Source: Eutypella sp. D-1 (lineage: Eukaryota; Ascomycota; Sordariomycetes; Xylariales; Diatrypaceae). From it: a stretch of 64,000 bases of DNA. Where the stretch lies: contig JAJTTP010000001.1 of the NCBI GenBank assembly GCA_023313575.1, forward strand, positions 62,001 through 126,000, in the 5' to 3' direction. Below the pieces are notes generated by a model that ran no database searches, was not told the origin of the DNA, and was given only the letters and a program-made list of their open reading frames with translations. Position numbers and translations under genes: made by a program. Positions 26,420 through 34,178 of this stretch are shown piece by piece (position 1 is the first letter of the stretch; the number at the start of each line of letters is the position of its first letter).

Positions 26420-28727
26420 CTAAGAGTCACGGCTCTTCGCGGGCCTAAACAGCTCCAGCAGCCCAGGCTCAGCATTCACGAGCATAGCCACGCGCTCATC
26501 CATATCGTCGTCTGCCGCCTGCATGACGGCAGCCAGCATATCAGCGGCCTTGACCAATTCCGCCTTGAGCTCGGCGGCGAGGAACAAGCTTTCGTCCTCC
26601 TCCTCTTCCACGTTCAGCCAGCACAGCATCAGGCCTCGCACGATGTCGTTGCAGTAGTGCGGCACCCGCGGCCAGCACGTGCGCAGGAGCGCCTGCAGGA
26701 CCGCGATGGCGGACTGTAACATCGGTGGGTGCGTGGTCCCGAATGGCTCGGCGAGGATCGCGCATGTCATTGCTATTAGGTTCTGTTTTCGGGAGTATTG
26801 GGCGTTAGTTACATCATCGTGCTGCCTGGGGTTTTTTAGGTCGGAGTTTAGGGGCTGCTCTGGGCGGTGTTGGGGGAATTATGGGAGAAGACAGAAAAGG
26901 GGGGAGCGGGGGGTGGATTGTGAGTAGGGCAATAGGAAATGGGGTATTCGCATTAGCGTGGCGTGAATTGATTTTGTTGAACAAAGTATTTGCCCAATCG
27001 GCAATGGTAATACGAAAGAAAGGTTGCGTACGCACCTTCAGATGTTTAATAGCAAGAATACCCATCCCGTCGACGAGGCGGCGCAGCTGCTCGCACAACA
27101 GCTCCACCAACCGCATGTACTCGCTCGCGTGGTGATACCCGACTAGTATACCTTCACGGATAATCCGATCAAGGAGCTTACGCTGCTCCTGCGTAAACGC
27201 GGCGGGGTTGTCGCCACCGCCGTCCTCCGCGTCGGGGTCTATGCCCGCCATAGCCATGAGCGCGGGGTAAGCGGCGCCCAGGACGGCGACGGCCTCGGCC
27301 TCGGGCGTCAGGCTCGGTAGGTACAGGACCGCGGGGAACACGGCGTCCTCGATGACCTGCGCCAGTCCCGTCCGCCGCATCAGGTCCGTCGGGCACCGCG
27401 CCCAGAACCGGCGTAGTGCGCCTAGTCCCCGCACCCGGATTGCCGCGTCCCCTTCGTCTAGAAGCGCTAGGAGTACTGGTGTGAAGAGGTGCCAGTGCTT
27501 TTCGAGTAGGGTTTCCTGTTGGGTGGGATTTATGTTGCGTGTGGTTAGTCAGCTTGTCCTGGAAGGACGCAGAAGCGGTCATGCGTATGTGTAGCTTGGA
27601 GGGTAGGGAGGACGGATGGATGGATAGATGAGTGCCCAGGAAGAAACTCAAGACATTTGGCGTTGCTGTATAGTATATCGAGATAAAACCAGTGGTTAAA
27701 ATGAAAAAGAGGAAGAACTCACGTCAGAATACTCCACAGCCCATTCGAAGACCGAGACGGCGTACCGACGCTCGTACTTCCACGGCTTCCGCGCCTCGGC
27801 ATCATCGCCGCCGTCATAGCGAGTCGGTTCGACAAACTCGGCCTTGCGCCCCGACGCTGTGACAGTCGCCGGACGCGACTTGGAGAATAGCGGCCGCAGG
27901 AAGCCGGTTAGCACGTCCTCTGTGATGAACCTGGCGCGCTGCTCCTCGCCCCGGTCTCCGAGGGATCCGAAGTGCTTGTCTAGTAATCCACGTGCCAGCG
28001 CCGCGGACGAGGTGGTCGTCCACCCGTCATCGCTGTTGCTGAATGCCGCGATGGTAAGCAGCGTCGCGGTGTCTGGCTTAGCGCCGTGCTTGGTGAGTAG
28101 CGTGTTCAGAATATCTAGGCCTAGTTCGCCCTGAGCCCTCAGACTGTCATAGTCCGTGTTGTCTGTGCAGTGCGTCAGCAAATATGACACGTAGTCTTCT
28201 CCCTGAAGCATGGAGGGACGGGGGTGATATATACCTTGACCGTGGGGTTGAGTCTTCAGAACGGGGAGGATGATCTTTCCCACAGATTCCGTGATCTCTT
28301 GCAAGGTTTTGCAGTCCTCGTCCGCAACTCCATCGTTCCGGTTGCGAATCGAGAGCCCGGAATCGCTGCACAGGAGAACATGGAGCGCTCGTAGCGTACC
28401 CGTCCGGTCCTAATTTGAGACAAGACAATAGGTCAGGAATTTGTCTCGCTTGAATGAGAATCGCACGGCCTCCCTTACAATGACGGATGCATCTGACTCT
28501 AGCCAATGCGCCACGTCTCGCGTGGTTATCTGCTCCGAGACCACTGAAAAGACAGCTCGGACTTCTGGTTAGCGGGTGAATGGGAAATGCGGGCCGCCAA
28601 GGACGGGGAGGTTGGGGGTTTTTTGGGGGTGTTATTTACAGCGTTGAATCTCTTCCGGGATCTTCTTCGGGAGCGTTTCGGCGGCAGCAAGGCCGAGGTC
28701 GCCTAGGGCCTTGACCAGATCTTCCAT
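26420..28727 (-). CDS. TTI2: Tti2-family protein (TTT complex, PIKK assembly), five exons
   Basis: Tel2-Tti1-Tti2 is an Hsp90-linked cochaperone that matures the PI3K-like kinases (TOR, ATM/Tel1, ATR/Mec1, Tra1). Exons derived by hand, minus strand: 28727-28640, 28543-28479, 28409-27723, 27515-27036, 26782-26420. Together they give 560 aa. All junctions are GT..AG with CTGAC/CTAAC-type branch sites, and frames join cleanly. The signature lies in exon 4: EKHWHLFTPVLLALLDEGD, a HEAT-like helix pair, then RTGLAQVIEDAV and FPAVLYLPSLTPEAEAV, the conserved Tti2 core. No catalytic motif, as expected of a helical scaffold. The last intron (253 bp) is long for this gene. It converges on FIG4, with about 240 bp between the stop codons. 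Recognition rests on memory of the family pattern. Confidence 0.78.
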
Positions 28728-29295
28728 TTAAGGTGTGTATTATATTATATTGCCCGTTGATCACTGCGTCGGCACGTCTCGTTAATTGCTTGTATAATGC
28801 AATTATGTCGTGATGACAATTATGTATCGCCTTTCAAAGAGATGGAATGTTGAAGTAGCTGAGGTAGGTTATCTACCTAGGTACCTAAGTAGTCACGTTT
28901 AATGCTACCAGGTGTCGGAGACTGGGCGATAGACTTGGTGGTGATAGCGAAATACGAGTTGACAGCTGGCAGACAGCCTTCACACTTTATCTGATCACAC
29001 AGTGCTCCATACAATATGTACCTAGGTAGTTCATTTCGATTCCTTAGGATAAGGGATGCTCTTGTAAGGGATAAGAGCAAGAGTTAGAGCTATGGAATAA
29101 ATATTCTTCTTCAAATCGTAGATGATCTACATATAAATCGACGACACCTATAATACAGGAGACGGGAGATAAGTCGACGGTTGATTGTCTTGGCCCCCCT
29201 ATTAATTGCCCTCCAAGGCAGGTGCGGAGTGGGCCGCTAAAGTTCAACTGGAGGGTCGACGCCACAGCTGCCTTTGTACACATTTTATACCGCTA
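28728..29295. other. Spacer between TTI2 and the bacterial block
   Basis: Ordinary fungal intergenic sequence with CCTAGGTA-type palindromic motifs (around 28875 and 29018). No gene seen. It probably holds the TTI2 promoter. Confidence 0.5.
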
Positions 29296-29299
29296 ATTG

Positions 29300-29959
29300 T
29301 CCAAAAATACCGGCAGCTCTAGGGCTGTCAGGACTTCAATATCGTAACGCGCCGCGATAGCTGGCGTTCTGAGCGTTCTGACGTGAGCATCGCATAACAA
29401 TTGGTCAGCAGTGAACGCGGTGTGGCGTAGGTTGTTGCCGGAGGGTAGCAAACGCCCGCCGGAGATTTGCTGGCGGTAGATCAGGGGACAAATCGGCACA
29501 GATCCGGCACCACCGCTTCAACAGTATGTTCACCCGCCGCCGTCAGCGGCGGCGTCACGCGCATTAAATAGGTGTACAGCGTCAGCTTGTGGTTCCCCAA
29601 CTTGAACACCTAGAATCCAAAACGCAGAATATATCCGTGTCTACTATCATAATGTAGCCACTCGGTATTATTGGGTAGGACCAATAAGCACAAACTGATG
29701 ATAGTCCTGACTGAGGTAATTCGGCGTCACTAGTGGGTCAACTACACGATCTTCCAGCTCACGCAGCGCGTGATTGATGGTCATGCGGCTTCACGCCCAG
29801 CTCCTTCACCAGTTTACTTTGGGACGGCACGCGCTGGTTGGCTTTCCAGCGACCTTCGCGGATCTGGCTGACGATCGCTTGCTTCACCCGCTGGTAAAAT
29901 GGCGCGGGCTCATCACCTATCGCCGCAGCCAGCTCTGCTACTGCTCTTTGCTCTGCCAT
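29300..29959 (-). pseudogene. hutC: hutC relic (GntR-family repressor of hut genes)
   Basis: In bacteria HutC represses hut transcription and is released by urocanate. On the minus strand from ATG 29959 the N-terminal winged-helix start is clear: MAEQRAVAELAAAIGDEPAP then FYQRVKQAIVSQIREGRW. Near 29780 the frame shifts (LGVK instead of LGVS, then SRMTINHALRELEDR in the next frame). About 100 middle codons are missing, then VDPLVTPNYLSQDY appears, then ~100 bases of foreign-looking sequence, then TYLMRVTPPLTAAGEHTVEA, the conserved effector-domain segment, and further stops. It cannot make a working repressor. Sequence below ~29,480 is probably the decayed 3' end, but I cannot align it with confidence. 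Confidence 0.75.
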
Positions 29960-29989
29960 TTCTTTGTTCCTGTTTCGAAAAATGCCCAA

Positions 29990-30059
29990 AGTTTACTGTC
30001 TCTGCCCGAAAATGTATATCTGCCATAGCGCTTGCTATTTGTATAGACAGGAGTAGACA
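29990..30059 (+). promoter_or_regulatory. Relic of the bacterial hutC-hutH divergent control region and hutH ribosome-binding site
   Basis: Between the divergent starts lies TTGTATAGACAGGAG (from ~30038), resembling half of a TTGTATA-type HutC operator, and a Shine-Dalgarno-like AGGAG at 30049-30053, six bases before ATG 30060. These bacterial signals would not work in a fungus; any expression must use eukaryotic signals that I cannot identify here. Confidence 0.5.
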
Positions 30060-31613
30060 ATGTCAGGTTCGATTCAAGAAATTCGCCTCGTTCCCGGTGA
30101 AGTGGACCTCGCTACGTTGCGCACTCTTTACCAAAGCAAGGTGACGCTTACGCTGACTGACGAAGCGCGTACAGCGATCAATCGTGCCCATGAAACCGTT
30201 GATGCCATTGTCGCATCTGGGAACGTGGTGTACGGCATTAATACCGGTTTCGGCAAGCTAGCGCAGGCGCAGATTCCCTCGGCGCGGCTGGCAGAACTGC
30301 AACGCAATCTGGTGTTGGCGGATAGCGTTGGGCTGGGCGATCTGCTGCCGGATAATGTTGCGCGTCTGGTGGTTGCCACTAAGATTATCAGCCTGGCACG
30401 CGGCCACTCTGGCGTGCGTATTGAACTGGTTGAAGCGCTTCTGGTGCTGTTCAACGCTGGCGTGATGCCCTGTATTCCGGAGAAAGGATCGGTCGGCGCG
30501 TCCGGCGATCTGGCGCCGTTGGCGCATCTGTCGCTGATGGTGCTGGGCGAAGGCCAGGTGCGCATGGAGGGTGACCTGATGCCCGCTACCGAAGGTTTAA
30601 AGCGCGTTGGTCTGCAGCCAATAGTGCTGGGACCAAAAGAGGGACTGGCGCTGCTGAACGGCACGCAGGTCTCTACCGCACTGGCGCTGCGCGGCTTGTT
30701 TGAAGCGGAAAATCTGTTCGCCGCTGGCTTGATGGCCGGTACGCTGTCGCTGGAAGCGATCAAAGGCTCGGTGAAACCGTACGATGCGCGCATTCACGAA
30801 GCGCGCGGTCAGGTCGGGCAAATCAATGTCGCCGCGGCCGTATCCTCATTATTAGCCGGCAGCGAAATTCTTAGCTCGCACACCCATTGTGGTCGCGTGC
30901 AGGATCCCTATTCGATTCGCTGCGTACCGCAGGTGATGGGCGCCTGTCTTGATAACCTCACTCACGCCGCGCGCGTGTTGCAGATTGAAGCTAACGCGGC
31001 ATCCGACAACCCGCTGATGTTCAGCGACAGCGGCGATGTGATTTCTGGCGGTAACTTCCACGCTGAGCCGGTGGCCTTTGCTGCTGATATTCTAGCGCTG
31101 GTGATTGCGGAGATCGGCGCGATTTCTGAACGTCGTCTGGCGCTACTGCTTGATGCCGGCCTCTCTGGCCTACCGCCATTCCTCGTAAACGATGGCGGCG
31201 TTAACTGCGGCTTTATGGTCGCCCAGGTTACCGCAGCGGCGCTGGCCTCCGAGAACAAATCTCTGGCGCATCCGAGCAGCGTTGACAGCTTGCCCACCTC
31301 AGCTAACCAGGAAGATCACGTCTCGATGGCGGCCTACGCGGCACGCCGCCTCGGTAGCATGTGCTTCAACACCGCTTCCGTCGTGGGCATTGAAGCGATG
31401 GCTGCAGCGCAAGGCGTTGATTTCCATCGCCCGCTGCAAAGCTCACAGGCGCTGGAGCAGGAAATGAGTCGCATCCGTACACGGGTGGCTTTCCTCGACC
31501 ACGACCGTTTACTGGCGCCGGATATCGAATCCATGCGCCTGTGGGCCAGCAGCCCTGTCTGGCTCGAATCCCTTACCGCGCTGCTGCCAAGCCATCGTCC
31601 GACTGTTATTTAA
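30060..31613 (+). CDS. hutH: Histidine ammonia-lyase, bacterial type, intact
   Basis: Converts L-histidine to trans-urocanate and ammonia, the first step of histidine catabolism. The 517-aa ORF has no stop or intron and matches the usual bacterial length (~510). The MIO prosthetic group triad Ala147-Ser148-Gly149 lies in [16 protein letters not shown]. Other active-site elements are present: Tyr58 in [10 protein letters not shown], Asn200 in ALLNGTQ, Tyr284 and Arg287 in [11 protein letters not shown], and QEDHVSM in the C-terminal half. It looks bacterial HAL rather than the longer fungal PAL. It follows hutC divergently and precedes a broken hutU by six bases. Flanking genes are wrecked while this one is open throughout. 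Whether it is transcribed in the fungus is unknown; contamination is the main alternative. Confidence 0.93.
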
Positions 31614-31619
31614 GGAATC

Positions 31620-31851
31620 ATGATGAGCGAAACTCTGACTCAGGCTGTTGCCTGTGAAATAAATCCGGGCGCCGCGCGAGAATGAATTGCACTGCGCCAA
31701 CTAGTTGATTAAAGCGACCTACCGCATGATCCAGAACAACCTCGATCCTGACGGGGCAGAGCGCTCGGAATACCTGTTGGTATACGGCGTCATCGGTAAA
31801 GCCGTGCATAACTGGAAGTGCTTCGAGCAAATTCTGCAACGTCTAAGTTAA
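31620..31851 (+). pseudogene. hutU: hutU 5' fragment (urocanate hydratase), truncated and disrupted
   Basis: Starts ATGATGAGCGAAAC six bases after the hutH stop. After ~20 codons a frame change occurs (GAATGAATTG), then the conserved N-terminal segment follows: ELHCAN, a TAG where the family has Trp, LIKATYRMIQNNLDPDGAER, and LLVYGVIGKAVHNWKCFEQI. HutU has ~560 residues; only ~75 remain before similarity ends near 31851. The TGG-to-TAG stop is a G-to-A transition. Confidence 0.82.
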
Positions 31852-31852
31852 A

Positions 31853-32582
31853 AAGGGCCACCATTTAAAATGAGCGCGTCACCTCCTAAGCCCCTTCCAT
31901 TTTGTCATCAGATGTCTGAAGGATCATGCCAAAGCCAATAATCAGGTTATGATTACTCTTATATGAATATGTATCATGTATGTTAAGAATTGGTTGCTTT
32001 TAACGTCGACTGTTAAATATTGCCTTAAATTTCTCAAGCCTCCATATCGTGGTTGTGGCGCTGCAGCTGCACCGCAGCCTAGAGCAGGGAGGTATTTGCA
32101 CAGGACGCCATATCATACAGAGACCTAATATAATACCTACCTGAGAAAGGCCTCGGTTCTCTTTAATGGATGACATAAGTTGATGATAGAGTTTTGTAAT
32201 CAATTTTATTGGTCTACCCTCCTTCCCTAGTGACCATCCCTGCCATTTTAGTATTCTAGCAGCGACATGGTCTAGCACTTTTAATCCTGCAAGTGCAATT
32301 ACTTACTTACCGTGTGGACCTTTTCTTTTCATCCGTCTAGTTCTACCGGCTTCGGAATGCCTGTTCCACAATCTGCTTCAGGGTCGCATTCTAAAACCTA
32401 CAGATAAGCAAGCATGTAAATGAGCAAGCCAATGGATAGTATATATAATCAGCCAGGGCGCTACTCTCCTTGAAAGGGGGGACGCCAAAAAAAAAAGGAC
32501 CCAGACCTCTGCCTTTTTATTATTCTTCTAGCATTAACTGTTCTCTTGACCGTCGAGAAAGGGACATCACATCGTGATCGAA
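31853..32582. other. Spacer between the hut block and the MFS gene
   Basis: Fungal-type intergenic DNA without a gene. From ~32430 it becomes promoter-like (TATATATAATC at ~32438, then C/T-rich sequence), probably belonging to the transporter. Confidence 0.5.
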
Positions 32583-34178
32583 ATGGTCGTACCGCCATCG
32601 TTTCCACCGGCGGCCCCGCTCATCCCGCCGCCGCCGACGCCCCCCAATAAACATTCAACAGTGAACAAGCACGGCTTCAGCGATGATCGCGATGTGGTAG
32701 ACCAGGTTGAGGAACAGTCCATTGATGCCGGCGACATCGACGTCGACGTCAGCGCGGACGCCGATTCGAGCGGGGAATCTCCCGCCGACCGGGAGCGGCG
32801 CGCGGCGATAGAACGGCGGGTACGGCTCAAGGTGGACCTGCGACTATGCACGATCGCGGGGGTGCTGTGCTCGCTGAACCTGCTAGATTCCGGTGTGATC
32901 AGCTCGGCTGCCGTGACGTCGATGCCGACAGACCTGGGGCTGACAGGCAACCGATTCAGCGTGGCGGTATTCTCGTTCACGTTGTCGAGCATCGCGTTCC
33001 AGCTGCCGTCGACACTGGCAGCGCGCGCTCTGGGACCACGTCTCTGGTTCGCCGCCCTCACCGTCGCCTTCGGCCTCATCACCGCCTGCACCTCCCTGGT
33101 CCGCGACTGGCGCCAGATGATCGCCCTCCGCGTCCTCCTTGGTGCCGCCACCAGCGGCGTCTACCCGGGCCTCACCTACCTTATCTCCACCTGGTATCCG
33201 CGCCGCGAGCAACAGACCCGCTTCGCCCTCCTGCAAAGCGGCGAAGTCATCATGCTCGCGACCGGCAGCATCGTGAACTACGGTATCAACAACGGGCTCG
33301 GCGGGCGCGGAGCCGGCGGAAACAGTATGGAGGGCTGGCGGTACATGTTTCTAGTGCAGGGGCTGATCGCGGTGGTGTTCGGCGGGCTAACGTACCTCTG
33401 GATCGTCGACTTCCCCGAGAACGCGCACCGGACGCCGTGGTTCCTGACGGCGGAGGAGCAGGCGGTGGCAGTGGCGCGGATCGAGGCGGACCGGGCGGAC
33501 GTGGCGCCAGGTCGGTTCGGCTGGCGACGGGAGGTACTGCGGCACGCGCTCGACGCCAAGGTGTGGGGGTTCGCGGCGCTCTTCTTCCTCCTCAACCTCG
33601 TCTCCACCTCGCTGTCCTACTTCCTTCCCGCCATCCTGCGCGGCGGCATGGGGTTCTCCGAGGGCGACGCTATCCTGCTGTCCGCGCCTCCCTACTACTA
33701 CGCAGTCGTCCCCGTCCTCGCCTCCTCCGCCTTCGCCGACCGCTTCCGCCTCCGCGCCCCCGTCATCGCCTTTAACTGCGCCTGTCTGATCGCCGGGTTC
33801 GCGATGCTCGGGTTCGCGGGCGAGACGCGCGTCGCTACGCGTTACGCCGGCACTTTCCTCGCTACCGGCGCCTACGTCAGCAATTGGGCCGCCCTCAGCG
33901 CCTACCAAGCCAACAACGTCGCCGGCCAGTGGAAGCGCGCTTTCACCGCTGCCGCTGTCACTGCTATGAATGGCGCGGGTGGCATCGCCGGCAGTTTCGT
34001 TGTTCGCGCCCATGAGGCTCCCCGCTACGAGACCGCTGTCTGGGTCGCCATTGCCTCCCATCTCCTCATGATTGTCCTCGTCGCCGTCTTCTCCCTCCAT
34101 TTCTACCTCGCTAACCGCCGCGCCGACGCCGGCAAGGTCGTACTTGAGGGTCGTCCGGACTTTAGGTATACGTATTGA
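32583..34178 (+). CDS. MFS transporter, anion:cation symporter (Dal5-like) family
   Basis: Proton-coupled plasma-membrane carrier of an organic anion; Dal5-type members move allantoate, nicotinate, biotin precursors or similar acids. First ATG is 32583, giving 531 aa in one exon. The cytoplasmic N-terminus (~85 aa) is Pro- and Asp-rich. The first helix begins near VDLRLCTIAGVLCSLNLLDS; about twelve hydrophobic segments follow, with a central loop around PENAHRTPWFLTAEEQAVAV. The family motif STWYPRREQQTRFALLQSGE after helix 4 and the GWRYMFLVQGLI helix are typical. Some family residues differ: the first-helix Asp is embedded in LLDSGVIS, whereas most relatives have DR(A/S)N(I/L)G, so the substrate cannot be guessed. 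Confidence 0.85.
   Translation: MVVPPSFPPAAPLIPPPPTPPNKHSTVNKHGFSDDRDVVDQVEEQSIDAGDIDVDVSADADSSGESPADRERRAAIERRVRLKVDLRLCTIAGVLCSLNLLDSGVISSAAVTSMPTDLGLTGNRFSVAVFSFTLSSIAFQLPSTLAARALGPRLWFAALTVAFGLITACTSLVRDWRQMIALRVLLGAATSGVYPGLTYLISTWYPRREQQTRFALLQSGEVIMLATGSIVNYGINNGLGGRGAGGNSMEGWRYMFLVQGLIAVVFGGLTYLWIVDFPENAHRTPWFLTAEEQAVAVARIEADRADVAPGRFGWRREVLRHALDAKVWGFAALFFLLNLVSTSLSYFLPAILRGGMGFSEGDAILLSAPPYYYAVVPVLASSAFADRFRLRAPVIAFNCACLIAGFAMLGFAGETRVATRYAGTFLATGAYVSNWAALSAYQANNVAGQWKRAFTAAAVTAMNGAGGIAGSFVVRAHEAPRYETAVWVAIASHLLMIVLVAVFSLHFYLANRRADAGKVVLEGRPDFRYTY

Follow-up and report, generated by a model that had tools for sequence, protein, structure and literature searches.

Comparison with bacterial hut loci revealed, at the level of sequence, a block of bacterial DNA residing in a fungal genome, in which the operon neighbours have decayed around a constrained histidine ammonia-lyase gene, hutH, whose Ser-His recognition pair is replaced by Ala-Asp. 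We propose that one continuous piece of the hut locus of a Pantoea-like bacterium (the end of hutD, hutC, hutH and the start of hutU) became part of the nuclear DNA of a xylarialean-type ascomycete, where hutD, hutC and hutU would have decayed as neutral DNA, taking up a fungal LTR element, and hutH would meanwhile have remained open, under purifying selection. Bacterium-to-fungus transfer of the block appears near certain. Taken as a whole, transfer followed by decay of the neighbours, retention of hutH by selection and altered recognition is the best explanation, and we consider it probable; the gene itself is best read as encoding a domesticated lyase whose recognition of substrate has altered, and a change of specificity is plausible.

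The stretch of DNA analysed (64,000 nucleotides, hereafter the window) corresponds to positions 62001-126000 of C1, a 6.2-Mb contig of a Xylariales-like fungal assembly of 48.5 Mb in 72 contigs. Between approximately 29311 and 31837, it is colinear with a Pantoea-type hut locus, comprising a hutD relic, a hutC relic, an intact hutH and the start of hutU (Table 1). Anatomy was read against L086, the closest bacterial locus found (90% amino acid identity in hutH, 86% nucleotide identity), whose alignment shows hutC to run on the minus strand, with hutH and the hutU start on the plus strand. A first-pass annotation of this DNA had described a bacterial fragment of about 2.5 kb with the layout hutC< >hutH-hutU, and gave its limits almost exactly; the alignment reproduced this layout and added the hutD relic, a name that we take to be appropriate from the protein sequence and the position beside hutC. 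Also borne out were the location between fungal TTI2 (27696-28304) and MFS (32574-34178) genes, the Shine-Dalgarno sequence ahead of hutH (AGGAG at 30049-30053, with an A at -3 of the start codon), the lack of introns and the protein length of 517 amino acids. By contrast, the parts of hutC and hutU that had been read as genes are now only relics. The block is not a functional hut operon, as hutC, hutD and hutU are relics and the genome gave no urocanase match.

Table 1. Features of the hut block and its surroundings (positions in the window)
Feature	Position	Strand	Remarks
Tti2-family (TTI2) fungal ORF, left neighbour	27696..28304	-	
Fungal left flank, 146 bp	29158..29303	.	79% to a single copy on contig C10
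hutD relic, 3' part	29311..29488	+	firm homology from 29323; 8-bp match from 29311
hutC relic, distal piece	29495..29587	-	L086 alignment
Fungal solo-LTR remnant, internally deleted	29588..29692	.	from other genomic copies
hutC relic, middle piece	29697..29755	-	right end lacks 258 bp
hutC relic, N-terminal (DNA-binding) part	29756..29959	-	1-bp insertion at 29790
hutC-hutH intergenic region, shortened	29960..30059	.	relative to L086
hutH, intact, 517 aa, histidine ammonia-lyase family	30060..31613	+	PF00221, TIGR01225
Ala87-Asp88 codons GCG GAT	30318..30323	+	Ser-His TCG CAC in L086
MIO-forming tripeptide Ala147-Ser148-Gly149, conserved	30498..30506	+	
hutU relic, first ~215 bp, then truncated	31623..31837	+	L086 alignment
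Fungal right flank, 104 bp	31880..31983	.	83% to a single copy on contig C12
Fungal MFS transporter, right neighbour	32574..34178	+	

The relics have been eroded extensively. Relative to L086, 218 bp at the end of hutC, between it and hutD, are missing, with 6 bp in their place; a 258-bp stretch is gone from the middle of hutC; and the intergenic region between hutC and hutH lacks two stretches of approximately 118 and 102 bp, the latter lying between two similar direct repeats. As the bacterial locus L004 also has the intervening lengths, we read the missing hutC and intergenic pieces as deletions in the lineage of the window. The hutU relic additionally carries a 4-bp insertion at 31657. By contrast, hutH is a complete, intron-free frame of 517 codons, and its product scored 662.1 bits against TIGR01225 (curated cut-off 539.15). 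The alignment of hutH with L086 contains mutually cancelling pairs of small indels at three places (near 30274, 31479 and 31551), some of which may be alignment artefacts; at the pair near 31479, Arg-Asp-Asn-Val of L086 became Arg-Thr-Arg-Val in the window with the frame kept.

We then placed hutH among its homologues. All named proteins among the best 120 of 8000 homologues were bacterial, and the best-scoring match listed there was that of Candidatus Pantoea soli (P0001, 87% amino acid identity). A genome search in the family of P. conspicua gave matches in 127 of 295 genomes, headed by L086 at 90%. In DNA and protein trees of 31 sequences (the window, L086 and 29 others, with fungal sequences not among them), the window hutH was nested in a bacterial clade as sister to L086 with a support of 100, near P. 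conspicua (L083) and P. ananatis (L084). Of the genera named previously for comparison, the tree puts the donor side with Pantoea-like bacteria rather than with Erwinia or Serratia. The protein branch leading to the window hutH is long, at 0.115 versus 0.028 for L086, or four times as much. Mobile vehicles were also considered for the segment 29290-31860: blastn against 395 plasmid records gave at best 57% coverage at 72.7%, and only short matches of 67-72% occurred in three phage records, neither being closer than chromosomal Pantoea, and both origins were rejected. Viral contigs held no further copy of the recognition-pair DNA.

The principal difference from bacterial histidases lies in the active site. 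The Pantoea-like HutH proteins (L086 and that of Ca. Pantoea soli) resemble the window protein in length, hut neighbours and MIO tripeptide, but carry Ser-His where it has Ala87-Asp88, in a fungal chromosome amid a dead operon. In the alignment with histidine ammonia-lyase (HAL) of P. putida (1gkm, 1b8f), which extends over 7-510, Asp88 falls without gaps on His83, so that the Ser82-His83 pair is replaced; the catalytic residues are common to both, those kept in the window protein being Tyr58, Ala147-Ser148-Gly149, Asn200, Gln281, Tyr284, Arg287, Phe333 and Glu418. Ser-His was present in all 120 of the homologues listed (best 120 of 8000), in 80/80 loci of the genome collection (best 80 of 590) and in each of the 30 Erwiniaceae-type loci fetched from the P. 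conspicua family search, three sets that overlap. The change from TCG CAC in L086 to GCG GAT altered three of six bases and two adjacent residues. The first-pass annotation had overlooked this replacement.

In this enzyme family, the recognition pair is Ser-His in HAL, His-Leu in tyrosine ammonia-lyase (TAL) and Phe-Leu in phenylalanine ammonia-lyase (PAL), and the Ala-Asp of the window protein matches none of these. We assume that His89 of Rhodobacter TAL is the residue corresponding to His83 of HAL. Substitution of this residue (His89Phe) is reported to switch the specificity of the enzyme, and the position to control substrate selectivity (PMC9002059). With the catalytic residues kept and Ser-His replaced, the chemistry should be retained and the known histidine handle is lost. 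Ammonia elimination from an amino acid should persist, given the intact MIO tripeptide and the other checked catalytic residues, and the substrate preference has probably changed, or else histidine may be bound via the carboxylate of the aspartate; speculatively, Asp88 could still serve to bind imidazole or positively charged side chains. The specific proposition that, in the fungus after transfer, the histidase gained a new lyase substrate through the exchange of exactly Ser-His for Ala-Asp is a tentative one, which we rate as possible but short of probable.

Ergothionase-like specificity of the window protein was also considered, as L085, a P. ananatis hutH paralogue at 40% identity, is possibly ergothionase-like and the ergothionase 6s7j appeared among the PDB matches. 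L085 lacks Ala-Ser-Gly at the MIO site in the alignment yet keeps Ser-His, and therefore the window protein is not of this type. A further member of the family in this genome is its own PAL (C16:205968-207137), which shares with hutH the MIO fold and PF00221, but is native to fungi, has an open frame of 714 amino acids and is only 34% identical.

The rival that survives best accepts the transfer but takes hutH to be dying: the protein would have served as a histidase, releasing nitrogen with excretion of urocanate, for most of its stay, and would lately have been inactivated by loss of Ser-His. Such a lone histidase has a precedent, since Aspergillus nidulans is reported to have an active histidase and no urocanase and to excrete urocanate (PMC1550239), from which it follows that histidase alone can supply a fungus with nitrogen. 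The same case means that the earlier premise of fungi lacking a histidase needs care; in the present genome, the only other match is PAL-like. A profile search of the genome for urocanase (PF01175) gave no match, with a control positive in 5 of 14 genomes, and any urocanate made would go no further via urocanase. Moreover, mutating the residues that changed here cripples known HALs: the Y52F, H82L, N194D and E411D mutants of Geobacillus HAL are reported to be inactive on histidine, and comparable mutants of the P. putida enzyme to have kcat values 1,000-20,930 times lower (PMC11432326). Judging from the numbering, Geobacillus H82 probably equals P. putida His83, with the Geobacillus mutant being His to Leu and the window change His to Asp. 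The protein branch is accelerated, and the window hutH has six changes at sites invariant in all other listed sequences, ranking third of 121 (after P0054 with eight and P0023 with seven), so that relaxed constraint fits too. However, 517 codons persist without a stop or net frameshift beside relics full of them, and a change confined to two adjacent residues, with the other checked catalytic residues intact, looks aimed at recognition rather than random. We consider a dying hutH unlikely.

Alternatively, Ala-Asp may already have been present in an unsampled donor bacterium with a variant HutH. The exact donor is indeed unsampled, and L086 is 14% away in DNA, but Ser-His was found in every bacterial sequence examined, including the 40% paralogue L085. 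We regard this origin as rather improbable and infer that the change arose after the transfer.

Under the preferred reading, hutH was kept by selection, and the decayed neighbours provide the standard for assessing this. In 512 codons, hutH differs from L086 by 154 silent and 51 replacement changes, with no stop. The corresponding counts were 25 and 18 for the hutC relic (113 codons, no stops), 9.5 and 14.5 for hutU (70 comparable codons, one stop) and 15.5 and 14.5 for hutD (51 comparable codons, three stops), giving 50 and 47 with four stops over 234 codons for the pooled relics, and silent and replacement counts differed significantly between hutH and this pool (Fisher p 7e-5). Bacterial baseline omega values, taken against L004 over the same codons, were 0.087 for hutH, 0.047 for hutC and 0.042 for hutU, and 0.206 for the whole of hutD. 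The hutC and hutU relics carry approximately 0.07 neutral substitutions per site since transfer (0.060-0.070 in the joint model), while hutD alone, with its high baseline, showed no replacement excess (0.133 versus approximately 0.14 expected) despite its stops.

In the joint model, fitted six times (three baselines by two sets of relic genes), the L004 baseline put the post-transfer omega of hutH at 0.085; the highest baselines gave 0, and the lowest hutH baseline 0.29-0.30. This estimate depends on the choice of baseline and on some 33 replacement differences in the hutC and hutU relics. Every one of the fits rejected omega = 1 after transfer (p 2.2e-5 to 1.6e-3), and a Poisson version gave 51 hutH replacement differences observed versus 116 expected if neutral. 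Against this, a branch codon model yielded a window-branch omega of 0.134 versus 0.082 in the background, a difference that was not significant (p 0.059); it rejected omega = 1 (p 6.5e-9), but this branch mixes donor and fungal evolution. The open frame and the excess of silent changes fit purifying selection since transfer, making retention by selection likely and suggesting that a useful protein is probably made in the fungus. That hutH is instead a decaying relic like its neighbours, open by chance, gains some colour from the decay all around it and from the few conserved positions lost, but is very improbable in view of the rejection of neutrality across three baselines and two relic-gene sets and of 0 stops in 512 hutH codons against 4 in 234 relic codons.

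The relics also bear on the age of the event. Taking fungal substitution rates of between about 1e-9 and 1e-8 per site per year, 0.07 per site would place the transfer, as a rough estimate, at about 7 to 70 million years ago. The first-pass annotation had proposed a recent inter-kingdom transfer of a piece of an operon. Transfer is upheld by the colinearity, the 90% amino acid identity and the fungal LTR inside the block; recency is not supported, because the relics carry this many neutral substitutions together with large deletions and stops.

Claimed bacterium-to-fungus transfers mostly concern single genes, for which age, integration and selection are difficult to establish. In the present block, the hutD, hutC and hutU relics supply an internal neutral standard beside the kept hutH, and the fungal LTR in one of them proves residence. 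In Valsa mali, 32 bacterium-to-fungus transfer events have been reported (PMC5025739). The present case resembles such general transfers in that a single bacterial metabolic gene is retained in an ascomycete, and differs from them in the decayed operon neighbours that remain attached and act as a neutral clock within the block. Among the open-licence PMC entries listed, judged by title and abstract beginning, we found no earlier report of this fungal HutH/HAL transfer. If Ala-Asp gives a new substrate, the case would illustrate the re-purposing of a transferred enzyme via a site known to control selectivity in the family; if true, it would be a natural, datable specificity change of an MIO enzyme after inter-kingdom transfer, with the dead operon neighbours as the clock.

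Residence in fungal nuclear DNA is evident from the LTR insertion, the flank homologues and the 6.2-Mb contig. The LTR family has eight other copies on six other contigs (C6, C10, C12, C21 with three, C22 and C34), which are 84-89% alike to window positions 29588-29692 over 75-89 bp. The longer copies, of approximately 232 bp, run from TGTGGTAACC to AAGCACA with the TG...CA ends of solo LTRs, and the three of the eight that were inspected by eye have 4-bp duplications (GGCT at L116, GGTA at L118 and GGCC at L120). The remnant inside hutC has its middle deleted and is flanked by AGCT and AACT, an imperfect 4-bp duplication. This 105-bp insert was first suspected to be an introner element, a reading rejected because the longer copies have TG...CA ends and, in the three copies examined, 4-bp duplications. 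As a family (L115-L121 and the window remnant), these solo LTRs are dispersed in the genome, with members 79-99% alike. The left fungal flank stops approximately 8-20 bp short of the bacterial block. With the LTR remnant in hutC and homologues of both flanks in the fungal genome, the bacterial block is therefore itself fungal nuclear DNA.

Controls for contamination were in agreement. The genome holds one 100% copy of hutH, the sole other match being the PAL-like one. Bacterial rpoB (TIGR02013) gave seven matches in the genome, none above the cut-off, which 10 of 14 control genomes exceeded; judged by number and score, three of these loci appear to resemble eukaryotic RNA-polymerase subunits. 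A bacterial SSU model, a weaker control for which 5 of 781 first-look candidates were scored, gave ten matches of at most 235 bits on small contigs. These SSU-model matches (184-235 bits) lie two each on C33, C37, C39, C48 and C57, approximately 2.3 kb apart. Identity to a bacterium, which the earlier annotation had named as evidence against transfer, was not found. Contamination or mis-assembly is thus very unlikely, given the fungal LTR in hutC, the fungal flank homologues, the single hutH copy and the lack of rpoB above the cut-off. Bacterial DNA chimerically joined to a fungal contig could account for the Shine-Dalgarno sequence, the lack of introns and the absence of a fungal name among the best 120 of 8000 homologues, but is scarcely credible for a decayed operon with a fungal LTR remnant within its hutC, in a genome with no rpoB above the cut-off and SSU matches no higher than 235 bits, even with 5 of 781 candidates scored.

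The MFS neighbour has its closest named homologues in Monosporascus sp. GIB2 (70%) and Anthostomella pinea (71%), both Xylariales. Another protein, P0121, is 99% identical to this neighbour, and hutH has no match closer than 87% among its best 120 of 8000. Telomeric insertion was considered and rejected, as the window begins 62 kb from the contig end and the first 2000 bases of C1 contain no TTAGGG or CCCTAA. Positions 1-21750 of the window are AT-rich, with 13-27% GC in 1-kb steps versus approximately 50-60% elsewhere and a sharp edge near 21.7 kb, and this part looks like territory of repeat-induced point mutation.
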